A stretch of DNA of 64,000 nucleotides, from positions 62,001 through 126,000 of the forward strand of contig NZ_QJRG01000034.1 in the NCBI RefSeq assembly GCF_004025535.1, in the 5' to 3' direction. Made by a program: the position numbers and the translations under genes. The notes under the pieces were generated by a model that saw nothing but the letters and a program-made list of their open reading frames with translations, did not search any database and was not told the DNA's origin. The stretch comes from Pseudomonas alkylphenolica. GTDB lineage: Bacteria; Pseudomonadota; Gammaproteobacteria; Pseudomonadales; Pseudomonadaceae. Within the stretch, counting starts at the first letter, position 1. Each line of letters starts with the position of its first letter. Positions 36,224 to 57,673 of this stretch are shown one piece after another.

Positions 36224-37174
36224 GTGATGACAGACAAACTCACTTTAAAGGTCACTGACATCCGCTGTGAAGCTAAAGATGTCATGGTTTTGGAACTCAA
36301 ACACCCCGATGGTAAGGATCTGCCGCCCTTCACTGCCGGCGCGCATCTCGAGATCTACCTCCAGGGAAATCTGATCCGTCACTACTCGCTATGCAACGAC
36401 CCGGCCGAGAGGGGCCGCTACTGCATTGGTGTGGGCTTGGCAAAGGAAAGTCGAGGTGGATCCGAGTACATCCACCGCTCAGTGCGTGTTGGAATGTCAA
36501 TCCAATGCAGTGCCCCACGCAACAACTTCCCAATGGACTCATCAGCTATCGAGCATGTATTCATTGCCGGCGGAATAGGTGTAACGCCAATTATGGCGAT
36601 GATCAAAACCTGTATCCGCGAGGGGAAGAAATGGCGTCTGTTGTACTGTACTCGCAATCGTCAGCGAACCGCGTTTTACGAAGAGCTCAAAGCTCTGGCC
36701 CCTGACAGTTGTCACTTTCATTTTGACGACGAACAGACCGACTTCTTTCAACCAACTGAAGCTTTGATTGATATCGACCCTCAAGCTCATATCTATTGCT
36801 GCGGCCCAATGCCGTTGATGAAAGCGGTTGAGGCTGCCGAATCGAAAAGAGATCCTTCTCACGTACATTTCGAGTGGTTCACAGCCGCTGCGGTAGACAC
36901 AGCTCAAGACAAACCCTTCAAAGTCATCCTGCGCTCAGGTGCGGAGTTCGAAGTGCCTACAGGCAAAAGCATCCTGGATGTCCTTGAGGAGCGCGATGAA
37001 GGCGTGCCTTATTCCTGCCGGGAAGGGCTTTGCGCGACCTGTAGGACAGGAGTGATCTCAGGTGTGCCTGATCATCGAGACAGCGTGCTGTCCAAAGCCG
37101 AGCGCGACTCCAACTCATGCATGATGATCTGCGTATCCCGAGCTTTAACCGAAACGCTACAACTGGATTTGTGA
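36224..37174 (+). CDS. VanB-type ferredoxin reductase for the third Rieske oxygenase
   Basis: A 316-aa phthalate-dioxygenase-family reductase: flavin domain (RHYSLCNDP ~52), NAD domain (FIAGGIGVTPIMAM ~110, YCCGPMPLM ~190) and C-terminal 2Fe-2S domain with CREGLCATC (~266-274). It is distinct from the VanB at 92-1033. It is paired with the Rieske oxygenase upstream. Its stop codon directly abuts the stop codon of the convergent MalT-like regulator gene with no spacer, so read-through or antisense interference between the two is possible. Confidence 0.9.
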   Translation: MMTDKLTLKVTDIRCEAKDVMVLELKHPDGKDLPPFTAGAHLEIYLQGNLIRHYSLCNDPAERGRYCIGVGLAKESRGGSEYIHRSVRVGMSIQCSAPRNNFPMDSSAIEHVFIAGGIGVTPIMAMIKTCIREGKKWRLLYCTRNRQRTAFYEELKALAPDSCHFHFDDEQTDFFQPTEALIDIDPQAHIYCCGPMPLMKAVEAAESKRDPSHVHFEWFTAAAVDTAQDKPFKVILRSGAEFEVPTGKSILDVLEERDEGVPYSCREGLCATCRTGVISGVPDHRDSVLSKAERDSNSCMMICVSRALTETLQLDL

Positions 37175-41107: not shown

Positions 41108-41222
41108 TGCAACCTTCCTCTTTTTATATTTGGATTCGTCGGTAACAAGCTTTGGAAAGCCTCTGGTATGAATGCCGTTCCCGAAAGCGCGCAATGCGGC
41201 TTTCGGAGATGGCAAAAGATGC

Positions 41223-42737: not shown

Positions 42738-43200
42738 TGGTTCCTTGTAGATTCAGAACAGCGGCGAGTGCCGCCTTAACGCAGGCATCGTCTTGTGCTT
42801 CGGTGCCACCAGAAACTCCCACAGCGCCAATCAACTCACCTTGGACATAGACAGGTAGACCGCCTCTGACAAGCGTAAAATCAGGATGAAGGAGCATTGC
42901 CTCACGAACCCTCGCATTCTCCAATTCCAGTATGCTTTCGGCAGTCTCAGCATCGAATCCTAAGCCTGCTGCGCTGCGAGCTTTACGGCAGGCCATTTCA
43001 CTGGAAACGGAAAATGAGCCGGGCACACGAAGGAAGCCAACTAATGTGCCTGTACTATCAACCACTGCGACGTTGATTTTGATACCCAGTTGCTCAGCAT
43101 GGCGTATGGCTGCTTGCATCAAACACATGCTTGCGCTGTGAGTAATGATGGCCTGGGAAACAAACAACTTTTGCGGGGCTATTGCTCGTAAATTATTCAT
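42724..43200 (-). CDS. GlcG/HbpS-family protein (NahX-like)
   Basis: A 158-aa DUF336 (GlcG/HbpS) protein. It shows the typical ALMQAAIRHAEQLGIKINVAVVD-type N-terminal helix and strand (about residues 27-48) and the VYVQGELIGAVGVSGGTEAQDD tail region (~115-137, given in part). A relative, NahX, is encoded in naphthalene/salicylate meta-cleavage operons with no firm function; HbpS homologues bind haem. It overlaps the ferredoxin gene by 4 bp and the dehydrogenase gene by 14 bp, so it is made with them. Protection of the iron enzyme is one possible role. Confidence 0.8.
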   Translation of the reverse strand: MNNLRAIAPQKLFVSQAIITHSASMCLMQAAIRHAEQLGIKINVAVVDSTGTLVGFLRVPGSFSVSSEMACRKARSAAGLGFDAETAESILELENARVREAMLLHPDFTLVRGGLPVYVQGELIGAVGVSGGTEAQDDACVKAALAAVLNLQGTNENE

Positions 43201-43553
43201 GCGCGACGCCTCAAAGGCGGGCTAAGCGCCATAGGTTTCTGAGCGCTGGAGGGCTTAGGAAGGACAGCGACGAGTCGACCAATGGTTCGAATTTTCAGGT
43301 CAGATTCAGGGTACAGCTGGCACGCTAATGCGATTCCTTGACTTCGCTCATCAAGATCAACTTGCGACAAGCTCATCGTGCCAGTCCTATAGCTCCCAGC
43401 AAGCACCTGTACCCGACAAACACCGCAGCCTCCGCTACGGCATCCAACCTGGATGCAGCGTCCACTTCGCCCAGTCATGGCAAGCAGCACGCTTTGTCCT
43501 TCCCGACAGATGATCGAATCATCTGCGTTATCGACTTCGACTTTGAAAGCCAT
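43197..43553 (-). CDS. xylT: 2Fe-2S ferredoxin for catechol dioxygenase reactivation (XylT-like)
   Basis: A 118-aa plant-type ferredoxin. The cluster motif is GCRSGGCGVC (~37-46), with the fourth Cys in ALACQLYPE (~78). The segments CREGQSVLLAM and SGRCIQVGCR follow XylT/NahT closely. XylT reduces the inactive Fe(III) form of catechol 2,3-dioxygenase back to Fe(II), which suits the operon. The C-terminal tail (KPMALSPPLRRRA) is longer and more basic than in XylT. It is the promoter-proximal gene; the shared element at 43638-43674 lies 85-121 bp upstream of its start. Confidence 0.88.
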   Translation of the reverse strand: MAFKVEVDNADDSIICREGQSVLLAMTGRSGRCIQVGCRSGGCGVCRVQVLAGSYRTGTMSLSQVDLDERSQGIALACQLYPESDLKIRTIGRLVAVLPKPSSAQKPMALSPPLRRRA

Positions 43554-43637
43554 TCTATGCCCTCTCTCTCAGCTAAAATGACCGCTGAGACCAAGCGTTA
43601 TTGTTGTGATTGGCTTAACCGTAACCCAGCTCCTCTG

Positions 43638-43674
43638 ATACCGTCTAATACCTTTAATCTAGTCAACCCATACC
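43638..43674 (-). promoter_or_regulatory. Shared meta-operon control element, copy 1
   Basis: On the minus strand: GGTATGGG, 11 bases, then AAAGGTATTAGACGGTAT. The GGTAT units start 10 and 32 bp apart. The identical 18-mer and identical spacing occur upstream of the xylJ operon (57590-57626). TTGACT within the 11-base gap may be a -35. Copies this alike upstream of two operons of one pathway indicate a common activator site. Confidence 0.65.
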
Positions 43675-43734
43675 CGATCAGCATGCGTCTGGGGAATTGC
43701 ATTGCAGCTAACCACCCATTTGCATCATCACTGA

Positions 43735-43960
43735 CCAGTCATTTGTTTTCGACCTCGCCAGCATCGTTTCCAGTCCGTCCAACGACTTGATGGCCAACAC
43801 CAGGGAAATGATGCCTCCTTGCGGCGTTCCGGCGTGGCTGGGAAACGGTTGGAATTGGTAGAAATAACCAGCCTTGAGCCATTTCAATAAATCGCCTTGT
43901 CCATAGAGATGTTGGCGGTCAACCAGTCGTGGCTGATATTGTCGAAACAGCCTTCAATAC
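43735..43960 (-). pseudogene. Group II intron reverse transcriptase fragment
   Basis: The minus strand reads GIEGCFDNISHDWLTANISM, then after a one-base shift LLKWLKAGYFYQFQPFPSHA and GTPQGGIISLVLAIKSLDGLE. This is the finger/palm region of an LtrA-type group II intron RT (FDNI and GTPQGGIISP motifs). It is frameshifted, and no start, maturase or HNH portion is present. Confidence 0.75.
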
Positions 43961-44372
43961 CAGGCGGTTACGTTCCTGTTAAGGGAAACGAACACCACTC
44001 AAGGGCCTAGTGGAGAAAGTTATAATTACCCTGCAAAGCATAAGCCCGAACAATTTCACAGTTTGGCTGATCGGCTTGGTTGACTTCTGGCCGAGCCACC
44101 AATATAAGATAAAGTTATGAGAGGTTCCGTTTGGCGGCATTGAGGATAATGATATGAATAAAAAACTTCAGATATTGCAAAGCATCCTCAGTCTAGTTCG
44201 ACCTATGAAAGTTATGTAAATCCCCCAGTTGACTGGTCGCGCCTCGCTGTGTAAAGGTAATTCCGCTTTTCACAACGAACATTGAGCAAAGTACAGTTTC
44301 CGCCCTCTACTTTCGGCTTGTGAGAGCTGGCGAATCTGAGTAATAATTTAACTTGGTTAGTCAACTGACCCT
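43961..44372. other. Non-coding gap after RT fragment
   Basis: I see no gene here. The sequence is probably further decayed intron or element DNA. Near its right end GGTTAGTCAACTGACC (about 44355-44370) is a partial palindrome just beyond the LysR stop, of unknown meaning. Confidence 0.3.
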
Positions 44373-45308
44373 TTATGGCAAAAACTTATCGTAAGTTTCC
44401 TTCATCAGTTGCCTGAGCCAACGGTTAGCTTCGTCATGGTGAAAGCGTGGATGCCAATACTGGCAGATGGGGAATGGAGCGAGGTCAACAGGGGGCTTAA
44501 GCTGCCTAATCCAACCATAGCCCTCGAACACCCGACCGAGCTCCCCCGGCACAGTAGCAATCAGCTCAGGATCACTTTGGATCAGCGTCGGAATGACCAA
44601 GTAATGGGGAGTCAGGAGAAAAACATCGCGTTTGATTCCGTGATCGTCCAAAGCTTGATCATAGTGCGTGGTCTTACCGCCTAGATTGATCACGATATGT
44701 TTCATGCTGGTGAACTGCTCGAGCGTTATCGAGCTTTTTACTCGTTTGTTTTCGCGGCTGACGATGGTTACGAATTTATGGACAAACAGATTTTGCTGGT
44801 AGAGTTCATCATTCATAGCAAGTTGCGAGCCTAGAGCCAAGTCCGCTTCACCTGATTCCAGCGTTGCAGCGATGTCCTCAGGACGTACTTGCAGGGTTTG
44901 AATCCTGCAGCCGGGAGCCCTGCGCTTGAACTCCTGGATCATTCTGGGGAGGAAAACAAGCTCGCCCATGTCAGTCATACAAAACTTGAACGTTCTGATA
45001 GCTGTACCCGGATCGAATCGGGTTTGCGTCATCAACGAGTTTTGTATCGTACCCATAACCGACAGAATCGAAACTGCCAATTGTTCTGCCTTCGGGGTAG
45101 GCCTCATGCCATCCCCAACTTTTACAAACAGTGGGTCATTGAAAAAGTCCCGCAGCCGCTTTAGCGAATGACTCACGGCGCTCTGTGACACGTCAAGGCT
45201 TTCCGCTGCTCGTGTGACGCTGAGCTCACGTATCAAGGCATCGAAAACAGTCAACAAATTTAGATCGAGCTTTTTATCGTTATGAATGCTGCTCATGACC
45301 TCGATCAT
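44373..45308 (-). CDS. LysR-family regulator (NahR/NodD-type)
   Basis: A 311-aa LysR regulator. The HTH is LSVTRAAESLDVSQSAVSHSLKRL (in part; ~30-52), followed by NDPLFVKVGDGMRPTP, the form found in the NahR/LinR subgroup. The effector domain ends RQLMKETYDKFLP. The start could be 45308 or ATG 45296; neither has a well-spaced ribosome site. It is divergent from the OprD2-MFS2 operon and downstream of the meta-cleavage operon. It may control the transporter/folate genes or the meta operons; NahR-type proteins respond to aromatic acids such as salicylate. Confidence 0.87.
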   Translation of the reverse strand: MIEVMSSIHNDKKLDLNLLTVFDALIRELSVTRAAESLDVSQSAVSHSLKRLRDFFNDPLFVKVGDGMRPTPKAEQLAVSILSVMGTIQNSLMTQTRFDPGTAIRTFKFCMTDMGELVFLPRMIQEFKRRAPGCRIQTLQVRPEDIAATLESGEADLALGSQLAMNDELYQQNLFVHKFVTIVSRENKRVKSSITLEQFTSMKHIVINLGGKTTHYDQALDDHGIKRDVFLLTPHYLVIPTLIQSDPELIATVPGELGRVFEGYGWIRQLKPPVDLAPFPICQYWHPRFHHDEANRWLRQLMKETYDKFLP

Positions 45309-45419
45309 CCTCGTGATTATGGTTCAACAGGATACTCCAATAGGATCCGGACTTGAACACCGAACCGGGCGCATGGATTACCCAGTGCTCGCTCAATAAA
45401 ATAAAAATAAGAGCCCGCA

Positions 45420-46694
45420 ATGACCAATAGAACCTATGGCGCGCTCGCGCTAACGGCCCTTTTTGCTCCTAAAGTTTTTGCACTTGGTCTGATCGATGAG
45501 AGCCAGGCCACGCTGACGACGCGCAACTTTTATCTGGAGCGCGATTACCGTAGCGACGTTGGGCAAGATAAAGCTCAAGAATGGGCGCAAGGATTCATCT
45601 TCCGATTCAAATCTGGATATTCCCAAGGCAACCAGGGCTATGGGCTGGATGTCCTTGGTCTATCTGGTTTCAAGCTCGACTCCTCTCCCTCCCGAACCGG
45701 TACCGATTTGTTGCCGGTATCGAGGACGGATGGTCGGGCTGCCGATGAATACTCAGAACTCGGGCTGACAGGAAAACTGAGGTATTCAAAAACAGATCTG
45801 AAAGCAGGAACGCTTGATGACGTGTTCATCCCATTTGTGTTCGCCAGCCAATCCCGTCTGTTGCCGCAGACCTTTAGAGGGGCTGCGCTCGTGTCTAACG
45901 AGTGGGAAAACCTGACGCTACGGGGAACCTGGTTCGATCGGACTAACAAGCGAAACTCTACAGATTACGAGCCCTTGAGTCTCGCAGCGCCTAACCAGCG
46001 CTTCAATGCAAAGGCCCAATCGGATCAAGCTACGTTTCTAGCCGTCGAATACCACCCGAAAAATCTTTATCAGGCTCGCTTTTATCATGGCGACATCCAA
46101 GACCTTTATCGGATGGAGTACGCGGATTTCAAGCGCTCCTGGCCCATTGGCTCTGACGTTTTCACAACGGATTTTCGCGGCTTTTACGCCTACGAGGACG
46201 GCAGCGCCAAAGCGGGTGACGTCGACTATCAGAACCTCACATCAACCTTCACTTACCAGACGGGCGCTCATCTATTCAATCTGGGGTACCAACATGCTGG
46301 CGGAGACACGGCAATGCCTTACCTCGCCGGCACCGAAATTCTCGTCTTAAGCGAATATCTAATGAGTTCCGACTTCGTTAGCGCCAACGAAAAAGCGTGG
46401 CAGGCAAAGTACGTCTATGACTTCGCCGGGCTCGGGACACCTGGCCTGAAGACGACCCTCAGATACATGAAAGGCTACGACATCAAACTGCCTGAGCGAC
46501 TAGGTGGCAGCGGGCTAAGCGAAAGCGAGAAGCACATTGAAGTTTCCTACGTCATTCAGTCGGGTAGCCCGCTTGCCGGGCTTAATTTCAGGGCCCGCTA
46601 TTCAATCTACCGAAATGACTTTGCCTCGACGGCATCGATGCGTGATGAGAACCAACTTCGCTTGAACGTCGACTACAGCTGGAAGCTGTGGTGA
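45420..46694 (+). CDS. OprD-family outer-membrane porin (copy 2)
   Basis: A 424-aa porin with a signal peptide ending near residue 22 (VFA), mature start LGLIDESQATLTTRNFYLERD (in part), WAQGFIFRFKSGYSQG, LPQTFRGA, NKRNSTDYE and terminal SWKLW. It is strongly similar to copy 1 at 19954-21231 along its length. The leader AATAAAATAAAAATAAGAG directly before the ATG follows the AANAANAA pattern. It is paired with MFS copy 2 and leads into the purU-LigM-folD-folK genes, so it probably serves import of the substrate of the folate-dependent demethylase. Confidence 0.9.
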   Translation: MTNRTYGALALTALFAPKVFALGLIDESQATLTTRNFYLERDYRSDVGQDKAQEWAQGFIFRFKSGYSQGNQGYGLDVLGLSGFKLDSSPSRTGTDLLPVSRTDGRAADEYSELGLTGKLRYSKTDLKAGTLDDVFIPFVFASQSRLLPQTFRGAALVSNEWENLTLRGTWFDRTNKRNSTDYEPLSLAAPNQRFNAKAQSDQATFLAVEYHPKNLYQARFYHGDIQDLYRMEYADFKRSWPIGSDVFTTDFRGFYAYEDGSAKAGDVDYQNLTSTFTYQTGAHLFNLGYQHAGGDTAMPYLAGTEILVLSEYLMSSDFVSANEKAWQAKYVYDFAGLGTPGLKTTLRYMKGYDIKLPERLGGSGLSESEKHIEVSYVIQSGSPLAGLNFRARYSIYRNDFASTASMRDENQLRLNVDYSWKLW

Positions 46695-46730
46695 TCCCTC
46701 CTAACAATAATTCGCAAGAGGTAATGACCC

Positions 46731-48068
46731 ATGTCGAGAAATGATCCGCGTGACCACATCAAGCACGCCGCCATGAACAGGTTTCGCATCAGCTTGGTGA
46801 TGTTCTGCGTCATCCTTGCTGCCCTTGATGGATTTGATGTCCTGGTAATGGCATTTGTCGCGCCATCGCTCGCAGCAAGTTGGCAATTGAGTAGCTCGGC
46901 ACTCGGAGCGCTCTTCAGTGCCGGCATGATCGGAACGGCAATCGGCGCTTTCATTCTCGCGCCTCAGGGGGATCGCTTTGGGCGAAGACCGCTGACTCTT
47001 TTCTGCTTGATGCTGCTCGCGCTCTCGATGCTCGTATCCGTGTTTACACGGGATTTTCTTGAAATGTTTATTGCGCGCTTGTTTACAGGCGTTGGTGTGG
47101 GCGCAATGTTGGCGACCATCAACATCATGATTACCGAGTACGCCAACGACCGACGCCGCAGTCTGTGCAACGCCGGCATGTCAGTAGGTGTACCCCTTGG
47201 CGCAACGCTTGGCGGGTTAATGTCAGTGCTGCTCATACATCAATACGGTTGGCAGGCTCCCTTTGTTTTTGGTGCAGTGGCGGCAATCGTACTCATTCCA
47301 GTTGCTTGGTGGTTGTTCCCGGAATCGCTGGAATACCTGATAGAGAAGCGGCCCTCACGGGCACTTGAGCGCGTCAATGCCATTTTACCGCGCCTCGGGC
47401 TCTCGACACTTTCAGAACTCCCAGAGCCTCGTGCTGCGCACGTTACCGCCGATCGTTTGAGCGACCTTCTCCGGCCAGCATTGCGGAGCCGATTCATAGC
47501 CAGTTGCATCATGTACTTCTGCATCATGATGACGTTTTATTTTGTCTCCAGCTGGACGCCAAAGATATTGACCGATGCAGGCCTGAGCATCACGGGCGGA
47601 ATTTCAGGCGCAATGCTATTGAGCCTTGGTGGGATGATCGGCTGTCTGAGCTATGGCCTGCTGGCCTCCAAGATCGGCGCACATCGCCTGGCAGGCATCA
47701 CCATGATCTGTTTGTTCTCGATGATGTTGGTGTTCAGCAATATGGGTTACCAACCTAACCTGCTGGTTGGCGTCGCATTGACGCTCGGATTTTTTCTCTA
47801 CTCGGCAGTTACAACTCTATATGTCGTAGTGCCTATTGTGTTTCCCGCCACATTGAGAGGGACAGGAACCGGCATCGCAATGGGTGTGGGTCGCATTGGC
47901 GCAGTCTTTGGGCCTTACCTGGCTGGCGTTTTGATCGATCTGGGGTGGTCTCGCGAGCAGTATTTCCTGATCTTGGCGACTCCTACGCTATTGGCCGCAA
48001 TGCTGCTGTTAGTACTTCGCCCTTCGAAGGTTGAGCTTGCCAGTCGCCAAGTGTCTTCTGCGTTATGA
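46731..48068 (+). CDS. AAHS-type MFS aromatic acid/H+ symporter (copy 2)
   Basis: A 445-aa major facilitator. It has DGFDVLVMAF (~35-44), the AAHS signature, then GDRFGRRPLTLF in loop 2-3 and the PESLEYLIEKRPSRAL connector. It is paralogous to copy 1 and likewise 36 bp behind an OprD gene. After its stop there is a 126-bp gap before purU, so the folate genes may have their own promoter or be read through. The substrate is inferred to be the methoxylated aromatic handled by the LigM-like protein. Confidence 0.9.
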   Translation: MSRNDPRDHIKHAAMNRFRISLVMFCVILAALDGFDVLVMAFVAPSLAASWQLSSSALGALFSAGMIGTAIGAFILAPQGDRFGRRPLTLFCLMLLALSMLVSVFTRDFLEMFIARLFTGVGVGAMLATINIMITEYANDRRRSLCNAGMSVGVPLGATLGGLMSVLLIHQYGWQAPFVFGAVAAIVLIPVAWWLFPESLEYLIEKRPSRALERVNAILPRLGLSTLSELPEPRAAHVTADRLSDLLRPALRSRFIASCIMYFCIMMTFYFVSSWTPKILTDAGLSITGGISGAMLLSLGGMIGCLSYGLLASKIGAHRLAGITMICLFSMMLVFSNMGYQPNLLVGVALTLGFFLYSAVTTLYVVVPIVFPATLRGTGTGIAMGVGRIGAVFGPYLAGVLIDLGWSREQYFLILATPTLLAAMLLLVLRPSKVELASRQVSSAL

Positions 48069-48194
48069 ATATCACTCATTACTTTCATAAATGTGATTCG
48101 TGGCGCTCATCGACATGTGTTCGTATAGTCGTATCCAGTCTTTTGCGTCACACGCAGAAGATCTCGAACAAGAACGACAATTGGAGACCCCACA

Positions 48195-49064
48195 GTGTCT
48201 AGCGCTAACCATATTCTTCTGTTGTCCTGTGCCAATACGGCCGGGATCGTTAAGGCCGTTTCCAGCTTCCTGTATGACCAGGGATGCAACATCCTAGATG
48301 CCCAGCAATTCGACGATCTCGATACCCAACGTTTCTTCATGCGCGTGGTGTTCGATGCGATCGACACCACTCGCGCCTTGGCAATTGAGGACATCAAGGC
48401 AGGCTTCGCCGACATCGCTAAAAAATACGCCATGGAGTGGTCACTGCGTGCCAAGCACGAGCGCAAACGAGTGATGCTCTTGGTGTCTGGGTATGATCAC
48501 TGCTTACGCGACCTTCTGTACCGCAGCCGTATTGGCGAACTTCCGATGGAAGTCTCGGCGATTGTTGCCAATCACCCCCAAGAGCGATATGCAACCGTCG
48601 ACCTGCAGGGTATTCCGTTTCATTACCTGCCAGTCACCCCTGAAACCAAAAGCCGACAAGAGCAGCATTTACTTGATCTGGTCGAGTCTACTCAAACCGA
48701 TTTGGTAGTACTGGCGCGATACATGCAGATCCTTTCCGACGAGCTTTCGCGAAAGCTTGAAGGCCGCTGCATCAACATCCATCACAGCTTCCTGCCAGGT
48801 TTCAAAGGTGCGCGTCCTTATCACCAAGCGCATGAGCGTGGAGTGAAGCTCATCGGTGCGACATCGCACTTTGTGACTTCTGATCTGGACGAAGGCCCAA
48901 TTATCGAACAGGACGTCGAACGCATTTCCCACCGCGATAGTGCCGAAGATCTGGTACGCAAGGGTCGCGACATTGAACGCCGGGTATTGGCCAGGGCGGT
49001 GCTCGCGTTTCTGGATGACCGCGTCCTGCCCAATGGGCGCAAGGCCGTCGTATTCGAAGGCTGA
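48195..49064 (+). CDS. purU: Formyltetrahydrofolate deformylase
   Basis: A 289-aa PurU. Residues 1-85 form an ACT domain ([22 protein letters not shown] in part). The C-terminal formyltransferase-fold domain holds the catalytic set in [20 protein letters not shown] and [13 protein letters not shown]. It hydrolyses 10-formyl-THF to THF and formate. The start is GTG with TTGGAGA upstream. Its placement directly before a folate-dependent demethylase and folD suggests that it regenerates free THF during methyl removal, in place of a formyl-THF synthetase run backwards as proposed for LigH in SYK-6. Confidence 0.93.
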
Positions 49065-49109
49065 TACACCGTTCAACAAAACCTAACAATGAGACGTGAG
49101 GGATAGACC

Positions 49110-50369
49110 GTGCTGCCCAACAATTTCCGTAAAACTCCAGAAGGCTATTTTACTTCGCGCTGGGGTATGCCCGAATACACGGACTGGCTTGACGAGAGCA
49201 TGTCCTGGAAAAACAATTGCTATATCGGAGACTGGTCGTTTCTCTGGCAACGCCGCTATCGCGGGCCTGATGTTCTGAAGTTGTTCTCGGACACTTCAAT
49301 CAACAGCTTCGCCAAATTCGACATCATGCAGTCCAAACACGTCACCCACTGCAATCGGGATGGCAAGGTCATCCACGAGGGCATCCTCAGCCGCTGGGGC
49401 GAAGATGACTACATGCTGTTTGGGCGAGGTGGATTCCTTGTAGATTTTTATCTGCGCAAGGGTGGCTACGACGTCACTTCTGAAACGGTGGAGGGTTTCA
49501 ACTTCCAAGTGGCGGGGCCTCACGCTGCCGCAGTGCTAGAAAAACTCACGGGTGCCAATCTCCACAACATCAAGTTCATGCATTCCCAGATCGTGCAAAT
49601 CGCAGGGCATGATGTCTACGCTCTGCGCCAGGGGATGTCCGGTGAACCGGGAGTGGAATTGCAAGGCCCAGCGGAACATGCTGCCGAGGTTTACGACGCC
49701 GTGCTCCAAGCAGGCCAGGAGTTCGGAATTCGCAAGCTGGGCGGGCGGGCAGCCTTCATTAACCATCTTGAAGCCTGTTTTCCGACCATTGTGACCGACT
49801 ATCTGCCGGCTATCTTCAGTGAAGATATGAAGGAGTACCGAGCGGAATTCGAAGCAGCGCTGCCTGCATTCGCATCTACCTTCAATGTCGCTGGCAGCTT
49901 TGAGGCCGACGACATCAGTGCTTGGTATAGAAGCCCCGTGGAGCTCGGTTGGGGTCGTAACATCAAATTCGACCATGACTTCATTGGCCGTGAGGCTTTG
50001 GAAGAAGAGGTCTCCAATCCACGTCGAGTTATTCGCACGCTGGTGTGGAATCCGGATGATGTGATGAAAGTTTTCGCTTCACTGTTCCAGAAGGGCGAAC
50101 ACTATGCATTCATGGAAATGCCTCGTGACCAACGCGGCTTCATGTATGCCGACAAGGTCATCGTGGACGGTCGCGAGGTAGGTGTTTCAACCTCAAGAGG
50201 TTATAGCTACTTCTTCCGCGAGATGCTGTCCCTTTGCACATTGGACATCAGTGAAGCTGAAATTGGCTCGCAGGTAACAGTTGTTTGGGGTAACCCAGGC
50301 GAGCCGCAACTTCCGATCCGTGCCACCGTGCAAGCGGCACCCTACAAGAACGATAACCGTCGCACTTGA
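49110..50369 (+). CDS. LigM/DesA-like tetrahydrofolate-dependent aromatic O-demethylase
   Basis: A 419-aa GcvT-fold methyltransferase. The order WKNNCYIGDWSFLWQRRYRGPDVLKLFSD (in part, ~35-62), SKHVTHCNRDGKVIHEGIL, FQVAGPHAAAVLEKL and ALRQGMSGEPGVELQGP (~205-221) follows LigM and DmdA-like proteins rather than glycine cleavage T-protein. LigM moves the O-methyl of vanillate or 3-O-methylgallate to THF, giving 5-methyl-THF. It is about 50 residues shorter than LigM. GTGAGGG precedes the GTG start. Flanking purU, folD and folK form a C1-folate cycle around it. Substrate (vanillate, syringate, guaiacol or other) cannot be decided here; a role in demethylating an N- or S-methyl compound is the alternative. 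Confidence 0.82.
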   Translation: MLPNNFRKTPEGYFTSRWGMPEYTDWLDESMSWKNNCYIGDWSFLWQRRYRGPDVLKLFSDTSINSFAKFDIMQSKHVTHCNRDGKVIHEGILSRWGEDDYMLFGRGGFLVDFYLRKGGYDVTSETVEGFNFQVAGPHAAAVLEKLTGANLHNIKFMHSQIVQIAGHDVYALRQGMSGEPGVELQGPAEHAAEVYDAVLQAGQEFGIRKLGGRAAFINHLEACFPTIVTDYLPAIFSEDMKEYRAEFEAALPAFASTFNVAGSFEADDISAWYRSPVELGWGRNIKFDHDFIGREALEEEVSNPRRVIRTLVWNPDDVMKVFASLFQKGEHYAFMEMPRDQRGFMYADKVIVDGREVGVSTSRGYSYFFREMLSLCTLDISEAEIGSQVTVVWGNPGEPQLPIRATVQAAPYKNDNRRT

Positions 50370-50377
50370 ATTTGTGT

Positions 50378-50398
50378 GGGCCCGAACAGCTCGGGCCC
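50378..50398 (+). terminator. GC-rich stem-loop between LigM-like gene and folD
   Basis: GGGCCCGA (50378-50385) pairs with TCGGGCCC (50391-50398) around ACAGC. It starts 9 bp after the stop. There is no T-tract, and folD begins 26 bp later, so partial termination or mRNA stabilisation is more likely than full termination. Confidence 0.45.
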
Positions 50399-50423
50399 TA
50401 TGCAATTGATATCTGGAGATAAG

Positions 50424-51305
50424 ATGCCAGCACTATTGATCGACGGAAAAGCCGAGGCCAAACGCGTGTGCGAGCAAGTCGCGCAAGGTGTCAAGGCTTT
50501 CGCCGAACAACATGGCAACGCACCCGGTCTTGGTGTGATCCTCGTAGGTAGCGATGCTGCCAGCGATGTTTACGTACGCAACAAGGTTCGTGAAACGCAA
50601 TCCGTCGGTATGCACTCATTTGAATACCGTTTGCCAACCCAGACCAGCGAAAGCGAACTGCTGACGCTCATCGAGTCGTTAAATGCTGATAATAAAATTC
50701 ATGGAATTTTGGTACAGCTACCGCTGCCACCCGGGATTGATGTCAATCGAGTGATCGAAAGCATCAAACCGGAAAAGGATGTTGACGGTTTCACCATTAC
50801 CAATACGGGTCGCCTTGCCGCTGGGCTGAACGGGCTAGTGCCTTGTACTCCTGCGGGAGTAATGATTCTTCTCAAGCAGGTACACTCTGAGCTGGCAGGT
50901 CTCAATGCCGTAGTGGTTGGTGCCTCCAACATTGTGGGTAAACCGATGGCCCGCTTATTGCTCAGTGAGGGATGCACGGTAACGATTGCGCACAAAAAAA
51001 CGGTCGACCTGAAATCACTTTGCAAGCAGGCAGATATTCTTGTTGTCGCGACTGGGGTAGCGCAGCTGATCAAAGGCGACTGGATTAAACCAGGGGCGAC
51101 CATTATTGATGTCGGGATTAGTCGTGTTGACCAGGATGATGGATCTACCCGATTAGTCGGCGACGTCCACTTCGAAAGTGCTTGGGAATATGCCGGGGCG
51201 ATAACGCCCGTTCCTGGCGGAGTAGGCCCCATGACCATTGCGTGCTTACTAGCCAATACATTGATTGCTGCTGAGCGCCTAGCGAGTTCGTCAGTACAAG
51301 TCTGA
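50424..51305 (+). CDS. folD: Bifunctional methylene-THF dehydrogenase/cyclohydrolase
   Basis: A 293-aa FolD interconverting 5,10-methylene-, methenyl- and 10-formyl-THF. Lys in YVRNKVRE (~53), [13 protein letters not shown] (~94-106), the NADP motif [13 protein letters not shown] (~163-175) and [10 protein letters not shown] (~258-267) are all present. TGGAGA precedes ATG 50424; the in-frame ATG at 50376 lies inside the stem-loop and is unlikely. Pseudomonas usually has folD elsewhere, so this is probably an extra copy dedicated to C1 flow between the demethylase and PurU. Confidence 0.93.
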
Positions 51306-51335
51306 AACAACCTATCCACATGTGGGCAGCCGGCC

Positions 51336-51902
51336 ATGCGCAGGCTGCTTGTTGTGATGGTTACTGATTTCAAGAGTCAGATGACAATGCATGGCACCTG
51401 CATTTTCCTTGGTTTGGGTACTAATTTCGACCGCGAGGCCAACTTGGTAGCCGCCCTCCAGATCCTAGACTCCAACCTACAGGATCTGCATTGTTCGAAC
51501 GTATACGAAAGCTTAGCCATAGGTGACGGTGGGGAGCCATTCTTAAATCTCGTGGTGTACGCCCGTACCTCTATGGAGCTTCAGGAGCTAAATGCGTGGT
51601 TGAAACTCGTAGAGACCGCATGTGGACGCCAGATTAAAGACCCACGTAATCAGATAAGCATCGACATCGACCTGCTTCTTTATGGTGATCTGAACGGCAA
51701 TTTCGATGGTATTGAGCTTCCCCGAGCTGACGTCGTAAATTATGCGTTCGTACTCAGGCCGCTTTCGGAAATCGCTCCTGACCATGTCCATCCGCAGTCA
51801 GGTTTCAGTTACGCTGAACTATGGTGCGCGATGCAAAGGGACACTGCAATAGGGAAAACCTCAGGTGCTTGCGCATTGTTTACGTCATCTGAACGAGCAT
51901 AA
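51336..51902 (+). CDS. folK: 6-Hydroxymethyl-7,8-dihydropterin pyrophosphokinase
   Basis: A folate-biosynthesis kinase of about 170-188 aa. CIFLGLGTNFDREANL marks the N-terminal strand, and DPRNQISIDIDLLLYGD (~107-123) is the FolK signature with its paired Asp residues; LPRADVVNYAFVLRPLSEIAP corresponds to the usual LPHPR..ERAFVL..L.E segment. The start is unclear: ATG codons at 51336, 51357, 51381 and 51387 all lack a good ribosome site. As an extra copy at the end of a folate-dependent operon it would enlarge the folate pool, much like folate genes seen beside other THF-dependent demethylases. Confidence 0.85.
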   Translation: MRRLLVVMVTDFKSQMTMHGTCIFLGLGTNFDREANLVAALQILDSNLQDLHCSNVYESLAIGDGGEPFLNLVVYARTSMELQELNAWLKLVETACGRQIKDPRNQISIDIDLLLYGDLNGNFDGIELPRADVVNYAFVLRPLSEIAPDHVHPQSGFSYAELWCAMQRDTAIGKTSGACALFTSSERA

Positions 51903-52324
51903 GTCCGACTTAGAATATGTGTCTGTGCAGATTGGATGAGCAATCTCGGCGATCATTGGTAAGCGTCCAACACAGCCCCCCTTTACTCCCGCCCTACTCT
52001 CCACGCCGTGCTCTCCAACATAGGAGCACACCTGAATAGCCGTCTACCTTTACGACGACCCGACTCATACAGGTAAACACAGCAACAAACTCAGGGAGTA
52101 CCTGCTTGCCCCGTCAGGCTTCAGTTGCCTATAGCAACGTGGATTTTGACGAGTCCGGAGATTATTTCCCCTGCGGACTTCTAGCTCAAAATGACAAGTC
52201 GAGAGAGCCCTTTCAGATATAAAAAAGCCGCCCCTTCCTTGATGGCAAGAGGCAGCTAAAGGAGTAGAACGTGCCGATGCGAGCTATCGTTCTGGAGTGA
52301 GAGCGTTGGGTGAATCGAGGTCAA
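51903..52324. other. Convergent gap, possible 38-codon small ORF
   Basis: Most of this gap looks non-coding. On the plus strand a TTG at 52106 with GGAG 8 bases upstream opens 38 codons to 52222 (PRQASVAYSNVDFDESG is the first part), and a hairpin-like GCCGCC...GGCAAGAGGC stretch follows. I cannot tell whether it is expressed. Confidence 0.25.
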
Positions 52325-53398
52325 TTAACCTGGCAAAATTAAGGCGCCTTGGCTATCAAAATGCCCTTGGGTTTTCGCCATGGTCATGGCCGTGTCATCG
52401 ATCATGTCCTCTTGGCCTCCAATCATTTTTTGACGTCCCAGTTCGACAAGGATGTCTCGAGCAGAAAGGCCCAGTCGCGCAGCCGCTCGTTTGGCTGGAA
52501 GAAGGAATGTCGAGTACACCCCTGCGTAACCTAATGTCAGTGACTCACGATCTACACGAACCAAGTGATCCATCATTGGCACAATAATGTCTTCCGCAAC
52601 ATCCATGAGTTTGAATAGGTCGACACCTGTTTCAATACCCATGCGATCACAGACTGCCGTGAACACCTCTAGCGGAGTGTTCCCTGCCCCAGCGCCAAGG
52701 CCTGCTACCGATCCGTCAATGCGTGAAGCGCCTGCTTCAATAGCCGCGATTGAGTTGGCGATTCCCATCCCTAAATTGTGATGGCCATGAAAGCCGATCT
52801 CAGTTTCAGGATTCAGCACATCGCGCAATGCAGATATCCGGGCGCGCACATCCTCCGGAAGCATGTAGCCCGCAGAGTCGGTGATATAAACGGTCTGCGC
52901 TCCGTAGGACTCCATTAGCTTGCCTTGTTTGGCGAGCCCTTCGGGATCATTGAGGTGCGCCATCATCAGGAAGCCGGATGTATCCATACCCAGGTTGCGA
53001 GCGAAGGCAATGTGCTGCGGCGAGGTATCTGCCTCGGTGCAGTGTGTTGCGACGTGAACGCTGCGTGCACCGCAATCAAACGCAGACTGCAGTTCCTTCA
53101 TCGTGCCCAGACCAGGAATCAGCAAGACAGACACTTTCGCTTGAGTCATCTTCGGGACTACTGCACGGATGTATTCCTCGTTGCTTGCCAAAGCAAATCC
53201 ATGCTGAAGGGAATTCCCTCCTAATCCACCGCCATGCGTAACCTGAATGTACGGAACACCGGCGGCATCCAAGGCTGTCGCTACACGAACCATCTGCTCA
53301 ACTGAAATTTGTTCACGCTTCGCATGCATCCCGTCACGCAAACACATGTCGTGAAGAATGACTTTGCGGCCTTTCAAGTTCTGTTCAATAGTCATCAC
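52325..53398 (-). CDS. xylK: 4-Hydroxy-2-oxovalerate aldolase
   Basis: A 357-aa HMGL-like aldolase (XylK/DmpG/MhpE) splitting 4-hydroxy-2-oxovalerate to pyruvate and acetaldehyde. Metal and active-site residues are seen in [14 protein letters not shown] (~17-30) and [12 protein letters not shown] (~198-209); [16 protein letters not shown] is also conserved. It overlaps the acetaldehyde dehydrogenase gene by 4 bp. The two proteins normally form a channelling complex, which suits the coupled translation. It ends the xylJ-initiated operon. Confidence 0.95.
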
Positions 53399-54312
53399 GC
53401 CACCTCTTCAGCATTTAGCTTGATTTGCCCGGACAGGATCTGCTCTGCAAACATTTCAGCGGTGCGCGCTGCTGCTGCAGTCATGATGTCGAGATTGCCT
53501 GCATACTTGGGCAGATAATCTCCCAACCCAGCTACTTCCATGAAAACCGTAACCCGATTTCCATCAAATACAGGCCCATTCACGAGTCGATAACCAGGCA
53601 CATACTTCTGCACTTGCTCGATCATCTGGTGCACCGATTCGATGATCGCTGGCATGTCCGGCTTGGCTTCTGTCAGGCAGCTGATGGTGTTGCGCATGAT
53701 CACAGGCGGGTCTGCCGGGTTAATCACCGCTAACGCTTTTCCGCGTTTGGCCCCACCTACTCGAACCAATGCATCGGAGGTAGTGAAGGTGAACTCATCC
53801 AGGTTAGCTCGGGTACCCGCACCCACCGAACGAGATGAAAGGCTGGCAACGATTTCCGCGTAATCGACTGGTTGCACTCGAGACACGGATTGAATGATCG
53901 GGATTGTGGCTTGGCCCGCGCAGGAAATCATATTGACGTTCATGACGCCTTTACTAGCCAACGATTCCAGGTTCACAGGTGGCACGCACAGGGGGCCGAT
54001 GGCTGCAGGCGTGAGGTCAATCATAAGTACACCCAAAGCATTCAGCTTTCGCGAATTCTCCGCATGCACGTACGCTGAGGTTGCATCGAAAGCAATTTGA
54101 ATCTCATCAGCCAAGACATGGGGAAGTAATCCATCGATACCTTCATGAGTAACTTTGAGACCGAGGTTGTATGCCCGCTCCAATCCCTCAGAGGCCGGAT
54201 CAATACCAACCATCCAAACCGGATCGAGCAATTCGCTACGCTTCAGTTTGTAGATGAGGTCGGTACCGATATTGCCGGAACCGATGATTGCGCATTTTAT
54301 TTTTTTACTCAT
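53395..54312 (-). CDS. xylQ: Acylating acetaldehyde dehydrogenase
   Basis: A 305-aa enzyme (XylQ/DmpF/MhpF) turning acetaldehyde into acetyl-CoA with NAD and CoA. The NAD fold is [17 protein letters not shown] (~7-23), and the catalytic Cys lies in [14 protein letters not shown] (~127-140). [16 protein letters not shown] follows. The gene overlaps its neighbours by 4 bp on both sides, so tautomerase, dehydrogenase and aldolase are translationally coupled. Product acetaldehyde from the aldolase would be channelled here. Confidence 0.95.
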
Positions 54313-54566
54313 TGCGGATCACCTTTCTCTGCGGCTTTCAGACTTGCAGGGCCAGATAGGCCTGAACTTGGAGTGCTGGCCATTCTTTCTGCTGCGGTTA
54401 TGCCGGCCATCGAAAAATGTTCCGGCGTGACGTTGTGAATCAAGATACGTACCTGCTCCGGACGGACGCCTAGAACATCAACGACCGTGTCCGTAACTGC
54501 GCTTAGCAACAGGCGCTTCTGTTCGGCGGTACGCCCTTCCATCAAGTGAAATTCGATAATCGGCAT
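54309..54566 (-). CDS. xylH: 4-Oxalocrotonate tautomerase with C-terminal tail
   Basis: An 85-aa 4-oxalocrotonate tautomerase. After Met removal the catalytic Pro1 is followed by [10 protein letters not shown]; Arg11, Arg39 (EQVRILIH) and Phe50 (EHFSMAG) all sit at their canonical positions. Classical XylH/DmpI is about 62 residues; here some 22 residues rich in Ser, Pro and Gly follow (from [10 protein letters not shown]). It sits between the acyl-CoA dehydrogenase and acetaldehyde dehydrogenase genes in the meta-cleavage operon and should isomerise 2-hydroxymuconate to 2-oxo-3-hexenedioate. Confidence 0.9.
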
Positions 54567-54569
54567 GGC

Positions 54570-55823
54570 TTAACCTGTGATCTCTTTTCCGAAGATATTG
54601 CGGGCAACAACCCACATCTGAACCTCATTGGCACCTTCATAGATCTCGGCGATCTTGCAGTCGCGATAGACCTCTTCGACGTGATAATGAGAACCGTCGT
54701 AAGCCAGCTCTTTGGTAAAGCCATAGCCGCCGAAAATTTGAATACCTTCGCGTGCGAATTCACTGGCGAGGTTCGTCGCATACCACTTGGCCATTGCGGC
54801 TTCCGGCTCAGGAAACATCACACCGTCGTCCATCCGCAACGCCGCCTTGAGGTACAGATTGCGTGCGTTTTCGATACCCATCGCACGCTCAGCCAGCCGA
54901 AATTGCCAATGCTGCTGAGTGGCCAGGGGCTTACCAAACACACGGCGGGTTTTAAGACGTTCGACGGAATGATCGAAAACGCTTTGGGCCATACCGACCC
55001 CGCTTGCAGCGATCCCAATCCGACCGTAAGTGAGAACTTGCAATGCGATCTTCAGTCCCTCACCACGTTGCCCAACGACATTTCCTAGTGGCACTCGCAC
55101 TCGGTCAAAAAGGATATCTGCGGTCAATTGCCCGTGATTACCCAGTTTTTTGTCAGGTGGGCCGACGGTGACACCAGGCGCATCGAGATCGACAACAACC
55201 TCTGTCATCCGCTCACCGTCGCGGCATAGAAGGACTACAAACGATGCAACCGGAGAGTTGGTAATCCACCTTTTATGACCGTTAATCTCGATGTAGTTGT
55301 CGTAAAAGGTCGCATCGGTAACCAACGATTCCACAGAAAGATCTGTACTCGCCAGGGGTTCGCTGGTCGCAAAACTACCGATTTTCTCGCCGGCCAAAAG
55401 CGGTGCAAGGTACTGTTTTTGGAGTTCCGGACTGGCCCATTCCAACGCGTGCCCCGCTAATATGCAGTGCACATCGTAAATGGCTGCAACGCTGTTGCTG
55501 AAGTAGCTCAACTCTTCAATAACGATCGCGGTGGCTGTGGCCCTATGCTTTAGCCCGCGACCACCCACTTCTGCAGCAAATGGGATTCTAAATAAGCCAG
55601 CATCAGCCATCTGCTTCAATAGCTGAAATGGAAACGCTTCAACTGACTCTTCGCGATGACCAATATCCCAAGCAACTGGTGCGAGATACTCTTCGCAAAA
55701 ATTCCTCACCTCTTCGCGGATCCCGATAACCTCTTCGGGAGTCATCAGGTCGTGGTACAACCGGGGCTGCTGTCGTGGCGGCTGGTTCGCATTTTTATTG
55801 GATTTGTTTTCGTTGGTGGCCAT
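54570..55823 (-). CDS. Acyl-CoA dehydrogenase embedded in the meta-cleavage operon
   Basis: A 417-aa FAD acyl-CoA dehydrogenase. Motifs: FATSEPLASTDLSVESLV (~130-147), KRWITNSPVASF, GRIGIAASGVGMAQ, QIFGGYGFTKELA and EIYEGANEVQMWVVAR (~393-408; catalytic Glu region). I prefer ATG 55823, which has GGAGGAG 8 bases upstream, over the GTG at 55853 that overlaps the xylI stop. No step of the standard meta pathway needs this enzyme. It may act on a side-chain or alicyclic CoA ester co-metabolised with the catechol, or feed the other CoA operon. Confidence 0.88.
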   Translation of the reverse strand: MATNENKSNKNANQPPRQQPRLYHDLMTPEEVIGIREEVRNFCEEYLAPVAWDIGHREESVEAFPFQLLKQMADAGLFRIPFAAEVGGRGLKHRATATAIVIEELSYFSNSVAAIYDVHCILAGHALEWASPELQKQYLAPLLAGEKIGSFATSEPLASTDLSVESLVTDATFYDNYIEINGHKRWITNSPVASFVVLLCRDGERMTEVVVDLDAPGVTVGPPDKKLGNHGQLTADILFDRVRVPLGNVVGQRGEGLKIALQVLTYGRIGIAASGVGMAQSVFDHSVERLKTRRVFGKPLATQQHWQFRLAERAMGIENARNLYLKAALRMDDGVMFPEPEAAMAKWYATNLASEFAREGIQIFGGYGFTKELAYDGSHYHVEEVYRDCKIAEIYEGANEVQMWVVARNIFGKEITG

Positions 55824-55849
55824 GATTGGCTCCTCCACTGACACGGTGT

Positions 55850-56638
55850 TCACACAAAGCGAAAAGAGACACTGCCCATTTCTTGGAATCGCGCTAACAC
55901 GTTGTCGCCTTTTTCAACAGGAATGGCTTCAGTGATGCCGCCTGTCATGACGAAGCTTCCCGCAGGCAAAACCTGGTCACGCGAAGCTAAGTGCTGCACC
56001 AACATCACGATGGCGTTGGCGGGATGATCTAGAACTGCTGCGCTCGCTCCTACAGCCTGTATCTCACCGTTCTTTTCGATCACTACACCGATTGTTCTGA
56101 GGTCGAGATCGTTCACATCACGTGGACGGCCACCGACAACGAAACGCGAAGAGGAGCCGTTGTCTGCGATTACGCTGGTGAGGTCGAATTTGAATTTCTC
56201 GTATCTAGAGTCAATAACTTCGACTGCCGGAATAATGAAATCCGTAGCCTCGATCACTTGCTCAATGGTGCAGTCAGGCCCGCGTAATTCGCTGCGTAAA
56301 ACAAACGCTATCTCAGCCTCGACACGTGGATGCACCAGTTCTCCGATGTTGATGACCCCATTCTCCGGCCGCGACATCGCATTGGTCAGAATTCCAAAAC
56401 TCGGAACATGGACACCCATCTGTTGCATTTTTGCCTTGGAAGTAAGCCCGGCCTTGTAGCCCATGACGCGATCGCCACGTTCAACCCAGCGCCGTTGCAA
56501 TTCGTCTTGAACGGCATAGGCGTCGGCAATGGACATCTGCGGGTACTGATCGGTTAGTTTGGGAATCGTGTGCGCGCGATCCTGTGCATGAATGACTATG
56601 TCAGCGAGCGCAGAGATGACTTGGGATGTCATTTTCAT
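55850..56638 (-). CDS. xylI: 4-Oxalocrotonate decarboxylase
   Basis: A 262-aa member of the hydratase/decarboxylase family. It is assigned to XylI/DmpH rather than XylJ because of GYKAGLTSKAKMQQMGV, FIIPAVEVIDSRYEKFKFDL, ADNGSSSRFVVGGR and FVMTGGITEAIPVEKGDN. It decarboxylates 2-oxo-3-hexenedioate to 2-hydroxypenta-2,4-dienoate using Mg2+. The gene overlaps xylJ by 4 bp; XylI and XylJ form a complex in the TOL pathway, so coupling is sensible. Confidence 0.92.
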   Translation of the reverse strand: MKMTSQVISALADIVIHAQDRAHTIPKLTDQYPQMSIADAYAVQDELQRRWVERGDRVMGYKAGLTSKAKMQQMGVHVPSFGILTNAMSRPENGVINIGELVHPRVEAEIAFVLRSELRGPDCTIEQVIEATDFIIPAVEVIDSRYEKFKFDLTSVIADNGSSSRFVVGGRPRDVNDLDLRTIGVVIEKNGEIQAVGASAAVLDHPANAIVMLVQHLASRDQVLPAGSFVMTGGITEAIPVEKGDNVLARFQEMGSVSFRFV

Positions 56639-57435
56639 GCTTCACCTCCAGAAAAGCGGACAGAACACGATCCCAGTCCCGCAACTTCGCATGTCAGTGT
56701 CTGCCCCGCGACGCAAGGTACCAATGACGACTGGGAACCAGACAAGATGACCTCACCTGCTCGAAACGGGATACCTAAGGCGCCTAAGGTATTGGCAAGC
56801 CAAACGACCGCATTCACCGGGCCGCCTTGAACGGCTGCTCCCGCAGCGGTGCTGAACAACTCACCGTCTCTTCTGAGCACCATTCCTGCCAAATTCAAGT
56901 CAATCTTTTTTGGGGAAATACGGTTCTGGCCAAGGAGAAAGACTCCGCATGAGGCGTTGTCCGCAACAGTATCGAGAATTTTGATGTTCCAATCTGATAT
57001 GCGGGAATCCACGATTTCAAAGCACGGCACTACGTAATCCGTTGCCCGCAAGACGTCGATTGCAGTGATACCTGGGCCGTTTAGATCATGTTTGAGCACA
57101 AACGCAATTTCAGCTTCAGCCCGAGGCTGAATCAGTCCACCTAAAGGAATGTCCTGGCCTTCTAGAAACTCCATACCTGAAGTCAACTGACCAAAATCAG
57201 GCTGGTAAACGCCCAGCAAATCCTGGATAGGTTTACTGGTCACACCTATTTTTTTTCCAACGATCCTTTCGCCTGCCTCGAGACGACGACCTACCATTTG
57301 ACATTGGATTAGGTACGCATCCTCCAAGGTCATATGGGGCTCTCGATCACGGAGCGGTGCCACTGTGACCCGGTTAATAAGTGCCGAATACAGCTCTTCA
57401 CCGTAGGTTTTTATGCTGTGGGTATTCATAGCCAT
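56635..57435 (-). CDS. xylJ: 2-Hydroxypenta-2,4-dienoate (2-oxopent-4-enoate) hydratase
   Basis: A 266-aa XylJ/DmpE. GKKIGVTSKPIQDLLGVYQPDFG (in part), RATDYVVPCFEIVDSRISDW, DTVADNASCGVFLLG and AGEVILSGSQSSLVP follow XylJ. It adds water to make 4-hydroxy-2-oxovalerate. The start is ATG 57435 (or 57429) behind AAGAGGGG; the upstream extension to 57657 crosses the promoter element and is not coding. First gene of the six-gene minus-strand operon, it lies 151-238 bp downstream of the control element at 57587-57673. Confidence 0.93.
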   Translation of the reverse strand: MAMNTHSIKTYGEELYSALINRVTVAPLRDREPHMTLEDAYLIQCQMVGRRLEAGERIVGKKIGVTSKPIQDLLGVYQPDFGQLTSGMEFLEGQDIPLGGLIQPRAEAEIAFVLKHDLNGPGITAIDVLRATDYVVPCFEIVDSRISDWNIKILDTVADNASCGVFLLGQNRISPKKIDLNLAGMVLRRDGELFSTAAGAAVQGGPVNAVVWLANTLGALGIPFRAGEVILSGSQSSLVPCVAGQTLTCEVAGLGSCSVRFSGGEA

Positions 57436-57586
57436 TTTAAATGACGCCCCTCTTGTTATTGAGTTCACGCATCCCAAAGTCGGGGCGCTTAAGCCTCTAG
57501 GCGGTCGAAGACGACCTGAATCGTTGAATTGAGCCCAACCACTGGTCTTATCAATTCGTCGTTCAATTCGAGAGTAAATACTCAAT

Positions 57587-57673
57587 CCCATACCGTCTAA
57601 TACCTTTGAAGCCGCAACCCCATACCTATACGGAATGCATACGCCACTGCAATGCATACTGAATCGGTATGGG
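57587..57673. promoter_or_regulatory. Shared meta-operon control element, copy 2 (divergent)
   Basis: CCCATACC occurs at 57587-57594 and 57619-57626, and inverted (GGTATGGG) at 57666-57673. ATACC also starts at 57600. The ATACC positions (0, +10, +32) are identical to those at 43638-43674, with the same 18-mer ATACCGTCTAATACCTTT. A second repeat, AATGCATAC, occurs twice (57634 and 57651 region). The site lies between xylJ and the divergent tautomerase/FadL genes and may control both. Confidence 0.65.

Follow-up and report, generated by a model that had tools for sequence, protein, structure and literature searches.

We analyzed a 64,000-nucleotide stretch of the Pseudomonas alkylphenolica genome (contig NZ_QJRG01000034.1, positions 62,001 to 126,000; here called the window) that carries a folate-linked gene cluster within an aromatic-catabolism island. 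Judging from its sequence and its neighbors, the 419-amino-acid (aa) protein at the center of the cluster is probably a tetrahydrofolate (THF)-dependent methylenedioxy demethylenase, whose one-carbon (C1) unit would leave as formate through FolD and PurU; here we infer the reaction, the substrate, and the fate of the product alike. Four genes follow one another on the forward strand: purU for formyl-THF deformylase (48195 to 49064, 289 aa; TIGR00655, 340.8 bits, passing the cutoff of 285.95), the gene for the GcvT-fold, THF-dependent 419-aa enzyme, to which we assign the putative demethylenase role (49110 to 50369; GCV_T PF01571, 122.9 bits, cutoff 25.6), folD for methylene-THF dehydrogenase/methenyl-THF cyclohydrolase (50376 to 51305, 309 aa; NF010785, 444.7 bits, passing the cutoff of 396), and folK (HPPK; 51336 to 51902, 188 aa; TIGR01498, 77.3 bits, passing the cutoff of 54.1). 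The spacers between them measure 45, 6, and 30 bases. Ahead of purU lie genes for an OprD-family porin (45420 to 46694, forward strand; PF03573, 395.1 bits) and a major facilitator superfamily (MFS) transporter nearest the aromatic acid/H+ symport (AAHS) family (46731 to 48068, forward strand; TIGR00895, 321.4 bits, under the cutoff of 418.55). Since these two genes share the strand of the other four and a LysR gene diverges from them, oprD-MFS-purU-enzyme-folD-folK likely forms one operon. Reading frames and family models thus agree with the gene order given in an earlier note on this DNA, namely, purU, a GcvT-fold gene, folD, and folK consecutive behind OprD and AAHS-like importer genes. The note had also stated that metF is missing from the window, and a tblastn search at an E value of 1e-3 with one Rhizobium MetF as the query likewise found none there.

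In the proposed route, OprD and the MFS transporter would import an aromatic compound, probably an acid, that bears a methylenedioxy ring, with the porin as the probable outer-membrane entry for aromatic acid. The 419-aa enzyme would move the bridging CH2 to THF, opening the ring to yield a catechol and 5,10-methylene-THF directly. FolD would convert methylene-THF to 10-formyl-THF, PurU would release formate and regenerate THF, and FolK would help maintain the folate pool. MetF would be unneeded, since THF would receive its C1 unit at the methylene and not the methyl level, and the methylenedioxy reading would therefore remove the puzzle of the missing MetF. The substrate is most likely piperonylate or a close relative, which remains a guess. 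Piperonylate would give protocatechuate, for which the genome encodes a protocatechuate 3,4-dioxygenase; a different catechol could instead feed the neighboring meta-cleavage genes.

The fold of the 419-aa protein is that of LigM, its best solved match (E value, 1.1e-64). A predicted model (predicted local distance difference test score, 86.3) had LigM as its best Foldseek match (E value, 1.3e-41) and aligned with LigM structure 5x1i at a Z score of 41.4 and a root mean square deviation of 2.5 over 408 residues, with 35% identity. Membership in the GcvT, sarcosine, dimethylglycine, or dimethylsulfoniopropionate (DMSP) types was considered and rejected: the GcvT, SoxA, and DMSP-demethylase models scored at most 66.8 bits versus 281 to 290 bits for LigM and DesA, and structures of these types reached Z scores of 31 to 36 versus 41 for LigM. 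A best alignment with sarcosine/dimethylglycine or sulfur-compound demethylases, which the earlier note had named as counting against its proposal, was thus not what we found. By model score, the best-named family is syringate demethylase, but the protein reached only 290.3 bits with the DesA model (cutoff 800) and 281.1 bits with the LigM model (NCBIfam equivalog cutoff 580), passing neither. All six LigM-side relatives scanned (L043, L054, L114, L059, L029, and L081) passed the LigM and/or DesA cutoff; like the 419-aa protein, none of the four scanned relatives from its own side of the tree did.

The active-site residues point to the demethylenases. For the sesamin demethylenase SesA, a 2017 paper on berberine breakdown names R81, H82, R100, R179, and H225 as proton donors and D95, E189, and Y221 as THF contacts; these donors except R81, together with E189, are reported as conserved in all BrdA demethylenases, with Y221 found only in the two BD3100 BrdAs (PMC5547118). 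At the positions of SesA R81, H82, D95, R100, R179, E189, Y221, and H225, the 419-aa protein has K76, H77, E90, R95, R173, E183, A215, and H219, respectively, a mapping made by spacing (six of seven successive intervals equal those of SesA) and not via an alignment with SesA. By this spacing, H77, R95, R173, and H219 match the demethylenase residues H82, R100, R179, and H225. LigM has K, Q, D, Y, R, E, Y, and T at the same eight sites. A215 stands at what we take to be tyrosine 247 of LigM, presumably a catalytic residue; a cited title speaks of a "catalytic tyrosine-dependent mechanism." R106 stands at what we take to be LigM arginine 122, which presumably binds the substrate carboxylate. The LigM residue numbers assume a three-residue offset to the PDB chain, and the aligned chain positions were read directly.

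For the relatives, we collected homologous frames with blastp (>150 bits, >330 aligned positions), and 125 frames together with the query (the 419-aa protein) and LigM gave 127 rows; dropping 20 near-copies (at least 95% identity) left 107 nonredundant rows. The loci are a nonrandom sample (41 regions for 59 matches, 34 for 41 matches, and 5 others) made up mainly of the best-scoring matches, and most LigM-like rows therefore come from two families. Rows were labeled by the last two sites as query-type (His without Tyr; 24 rows, the query included), SesA-like (His and Tyr; 5 rows), LigM-like (Tyr without His; 77 rows), or other (1 row). The tree was a "quick" one with Shimodaira-Hasegawa-like approximate likelihood ratio test (SH-aLRT) support only, was built with the eight signature columns omitted, and flags long branches (L036 twice, L028, L105, L034, and others). 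A branch with an SH-aLRT value of 100 separates the 29 His-bearing rows (24 without and 5 with Tyr) from 78 rows that have no His at the H225 site, so that the residue labels follow descent even though the tree was built without those columns. Tyrosine occupies the LigM 247 site in 77 of the 78 LigM-side rows (the LigM-like rows; the 78th is the row labeled other) versus 5 of 29 on the query side, and the query has alanine. The query falls in a 16-row subclade (SH-aLRT, 99) of the His-bearing side. All 16 members, and thus 16 of the 24 query-type rows, keep the arginine at the LigM 122 site; R106, the OprD porin, and an importer of the aromatic-acid type together suggest a carboxylate substrate. 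The five SesA-like rows, which have Tyr as well as His, nest among query-type rows, so that the query-type label needs two changes on the tree.

The query's side of the tree spans 35 to 89% identity to the query, and as built it contains no characterized enzyme. Both points speak for a third, unnamed activity of the LigM fold, such as transfer of some other activated group (CH3 or CH2) from an aromatic acid, with H219 shared by chance. We give this alternative very little credence, since the signature agrees with that reported for SesA and BrdA and the gene context fits methylene-level carbon.

Gene context differed between the two sides in the folate genes nearby. We called PurU, FolD, and MetF by blastp (>60 bits, one reference each) and formate-THF ligase by a motif. 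The query's own neighbors were entered by hand in the 3-kb counts, and the same-strand adjacency and 8-kb neighbor surveys covered the other rows; complete 3-kb flanks were available for 21 of 24 query-type, 70 of 76 LigM-like, and 1 of 5 SesA-like rows. A C1 gene occurred within 3 kb in 34 of 76 LigM-like rows, and all 34 had MetF, accompanied by FolD in 13 and by PurU in 17. Among query-type rows, 18 of 24 had such a gene, and 16 of these 18 lacked MetF but had PurU and/or FolD. MetF was present in the other two (L027 and L036), each of which has a LigM-like paralogue within 2.5 kb. One of the five SesA-like rows had C1 genes (FolD and PurU). Same-strand adjacency gave a similar picture, with PurU or FolD plus PurU in 13 of 23 query-type rows and MetF in none of the 23, compared with C1 genes in 18 of 76 LigM-like rows and MetF in 18 of those 18. 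A methyl group on THF needs MetF-type oxidation, a step described in SYK-6 (PMC12585457) and also proposed to occur in A. fabrum (PMC7797058). The contrast fits the chemistry, in which CH3 calls for MetF-type oxidation, whereas a methylenedioxy CH2 would yield methylene-THF, for which FolD and PurU would suffice.

These counts bear directly on the alternative that the 419-aa protein is a LigM/DesA-type O-demethylase, passing a methoxy CH3 to THF and leaving the single genomic MetF to oxidize 5-methyl-THF ahead of FolD and PurU. We regard this as unlikely. It draws on LigM as the best solved match, on the retained arginine at LigM 122 with its presumed role, on the three VanA-type oxygenases of the island, which make methoxyarenes a likely food, and on the one MetF of the genome; set against these are the lost tyrosine, the gained H219, the placement opposite LigM in the tree, scores that fall far short of both cutoffs, and the lack of a dedicated MetF, which is present beside every one of the 34 LigM-like rows that have C1 genes (the remaining 42 of 76 have none nearby). 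The MetF neighbor that marks LigM and DesA is missing beside the query, and among LigM-like rows it is itself not universal (34 of 76 rows, with 42 of 76 having no C1 gene). The LigM/DesA-type methoxyarene O-demethylase proposed in the earlier note is thus not supported, with both cutoffs missed, the conserved tyrosine absent, and the protein on the opposite side of the tree. What survives of that proposal is a THF-dependent LigM-fold C1 transferase that is encoded, along with a FolD and a PurU of its own and no local MetF, within an aromatic-catabolism island. Residues and gene context favor the note's own fallback, in which the enzyme delivers a more oxidized C1 unit; that unit would then come from a methylenedioxy ring and not from a methoxy group.

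The host genome (6.17 Mb in 50 contigs, with the window at C15:62001-126000) holds a single MetF match, on a contig other than that of the window. It has three PurU and three FolK proteins over their cutoffs, one of each encoded in the operon, and the island purU and folK copies are therefore extra; the additional folK probably boosts folate supply. Elsewhere in this genome, a 1,041-aa frame containing a GcvT domain has a PurU gene behind it, in the same orientation and on one contig (G000:C21:177574-180154; L002 and L117), a parallel pairing of a probable methylene-THF producer with PurU.

The enzyme is rare in the genus and in the phylum, with matches at an E value of 1e-30 or better in 3 of 298 genus genomes and matches in 7 of 398 phylum genomes, the host included in both counts. 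Relatives with 63 to 89% identity in the named genome collection come from Pseudomonas taiwanensis xwS3, Pseudomonas sp. BN411, Novosphingobium, Phyllobacterium, Bradyrhizobium, Maritimibacter, Seohaeicola, and a Rhizobiaceae metagenome-assembled genome (MAG). Others are plasmid borne, with 69% identity on a Rhizobium plasmid and 61% on a Streptomyces plasmid. On a Rhodococcus opacus plasmid, another clade member has a dihydropteroate-synthase-type (Pterin_bind) gene (L112, 8852 to 9775) 1.3 kb away, and a folate-synthesis gene near such an enzyme is therefore not unique to the folK of the window. A 7.5-kb mobilizable Psychrobacter plasmid (L028, 1 to 7492) has a SesA-like (His and Tyr) GcvT-fold gene near a small multidrug resistance (SMR) efflux gene and a toxin-antitoxin pair, and is a small carrier for such a gene.

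The divergent LysR-type regulator gene (44373 to 45308, reverse strand; Pfam HTH_1 and LysR_substrate) has homologues 85 to 86% identical close to this module in Pseudomonas taiwanensis xwS3 and in Pseudomonas sp. BN411. The 111 bases between regulator and porin (45309 to 45419) may include a LysR box, and a similar stretch (GTGATTATGGT.CA) recurs 5' of LysR in P. taiwanensis (L005), as seen in a by-eye, side-by-side comparison with no statistic. From 40175 to 57657, the window encodes a lower catechol meta-cleavage pathway that the folate operon cuts in two. The first part comprises catechol 2,3-dioxygenase and 2-hydroxymuconic semialdehyde dehydrogenase, and the second comprises a tautomerase, decarboxylase, hydratase, aldolase, and acetaldehyde dehydrogenase; inside this second part also lies a gene for an acyl-CoA dehydrogenase (54570 to 55853). 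A protocatechuate 3,4-dioxygenase beta gene is present on the contig of the window.

The island encodes three VanA-type oxygenases. Two different ones (1109 to 2164 and 2212 to 3279) lie beside one reductase gene (92 to 1033), all within 92 to 3279, and the third lies with its own reductase at 35101 to 37174. A run of consecutive genes at 4443 to 9881 encodes an RPE65/lignostilbene-dioxygenase-family protein, a FadL-like transporter (a frame identified by its N-terminal sequence only), a dehydrogenase of the benzaldehyde type, and a glutathione-independent formaldehyde dehydrogenase, and it looks like an isoeugenol-type side-chain module. In Novosphingobium rosa (L011, 2413 to 10177), homologues of the window's VanA-like (71% and 48%) and FdhA (72%) proteins adjoin purU-enzyme-folD, hinting at a substrate that bears both methoxy and methylenedioxy groups.

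The Novosphingobium rosa arrangement, with VanA-like and FdhA genes 71% and 72% identical to those of the window, also lends something to the idea that the GcvT-fold protein, FolD, and PurU act as a folate-linked sink, taking up formaldehyde produced by the Rieske O-demethylases of the island or carbon from some other methylene donor, with no ring opening. FolD and PurU take methylene-THF of any origin, and the 1,041-aa GcvT-domain frame ahead of PurU in the host genome is in keeping with such a role. We nevertheless find this sink quite improbable: a porin and an importer belong to the same likely operon, the island FdhA already handles formaldehyde, the LigM-type fold and R106 are kept, and VanA-like genes occur near only 2 of 23 other query-type rows.

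Some query-type loci carry a further clue to substrate. Within 8 kb, hydroxyquinol 1,2-dioxygenase-like genes occur for 5 of 23 query-type rows (about four lineages) and, among the 76 LigM-like rows examined, at two loci; a query-type row shares one of these two. The loci are those of Phyllobacterium (L012), the Rhizobiaceae MAG (L075/L023), a P. taiwanensis/BN411 paralogue locus (L010/L009), and the same-genus genome G424 (L109). The best solved matches of these dioxygenases are 6-chlorohydroxyquinol dioxygenase (E values, 2.7e-133 and 2.7e-131) and PnpC (2.9e-66), followed by hydroxyquinol dioxygenases, and maleylacetate-reductase-like genes accompany them in L012 and L023. In G424 (L109, 5081 to 9400), a hydroxyquinol-dioxygenase-like gene, an A/B-barrel gene, purU, a demethylenase-like gene, and folD run along one strand. 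If a demethylenase produced hydroxyquinol, for instance from sesamol, a dioxygenase of this kind would be required, and the G424 run is well suited to testing sesamol. For P. alkylphenolica itself, hydroxyquinol was considered as the product and set aside, with the best dioxygenase match in the host genome at 34% identity.

Several observations weigh against a methylenedioxy demethylenase. The residue correspondence with SesA comes from spacing, and the query is placed by residues and tree side, with SesA, BrdA, and PipA compared through their published descriptions. H82 and R100 were considered as discriminating residues and rejected, both also occurring in LigM-like rows (H at the H82 site in 17 of 77 and R at the R100 site in 20 of 77). 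No C1 gene lies within 3 kb in 6 of 24 query-type and 4 of 5 SesA-like rows. Fisher P values of about 1e-11 overstate independence: residues and context both part at a single deep branch, which makes their contrast close to one evolutionary event, though one that recurs over many genera. Gene order cannot prove oxidation level, and the single genomic MetF could serve. The hydroxyquinol link would fit methoxyhydroquinone demethylation too, its rows include some with and some without R106, and the host genome has no close hydroxyquinol dioxygenase (best match, 34% identity). Catechol 2,3-dioxygenase-like genes occur in seven LigM-like loci and near none of the other query-type rows, and the query's catechol 2,3-dioxygenase neighbor is therefore not a usual companion of its group.

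Methylenedioxy rings shield many plant compounds from breakdown, including piperine, sesamin, berberine, and safrole-type oils. We lean, by a narrow balance, toward a broader proposal in which the whole 29-row side consists of methylenedioxy-opening enzymes, the neighboring genes read out the oxidation state of the carbon (FolD and PurU for CH2, MetF for CH3), and the operon is a complete module for import of piperonylate or a related aromatic acid, ring opening, and formate release. Loss of the Tyr and gain of the His within one fold would then be the hallmark of a shift from CH3 to CH2 transfer. Being able to separate demethylenases from demethylases by two active-site positions plus the adjoining folate gene would improve genome annotation, and the system offers a direct test of how the GcvT fold switched between these two kinds of C1 transfer. 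Among the matches listed in open-license literature, none was a THF demethylenase from Pseudomonas.

Among known systems, the GcvT domains of sarcosine and dimethylglycine oxidases give methylene-THF; they share 20 to 25% identity with the 419-aa protein over the aligned part, are fused to other domains, and act on amines. In the host genome, a PurU gene lies near one such frame. The aryl O-demethylases LigM, DesA, and Atu1420 have in common with it the fold and the arginine at LigM 122, but the 419-aa protein lacks the tyrosine at LigM 247, has His in place of Thr four residues on, and has no adjoining MetF. SesA and BrdA, THF-dependent GcvT-like proteins, are matched at SesA H82, R100, R179, H225, and E189. 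They differ in that the 419-aa protein lacks Tyr221 of SesA, as reported for most BrdAs, and in their reported substrates, a lignan (sesamin) and an alkaloid (berberine). By analogy, the nearest functional parallel is PipA, the methylenetransferase of Rhodococcus ruber No. 14, with which the 419-aa enzyme would share the reaction (a methylenedioxyaryl compound to a catechol, with removal of CH2) and probably an acid substrate; PipA belongs to an actinomycete cluster with a piperine hydrolase, and the parallel is drawn from its published description. PipA is reported to be more specific for piperonylic acid, on the route from piperine to protocatechuate (as cited in PMC12753220). The enzyme type is thus already known from SesA, BrdA, and PipA, and the operon would add a member in Pseudomonas.

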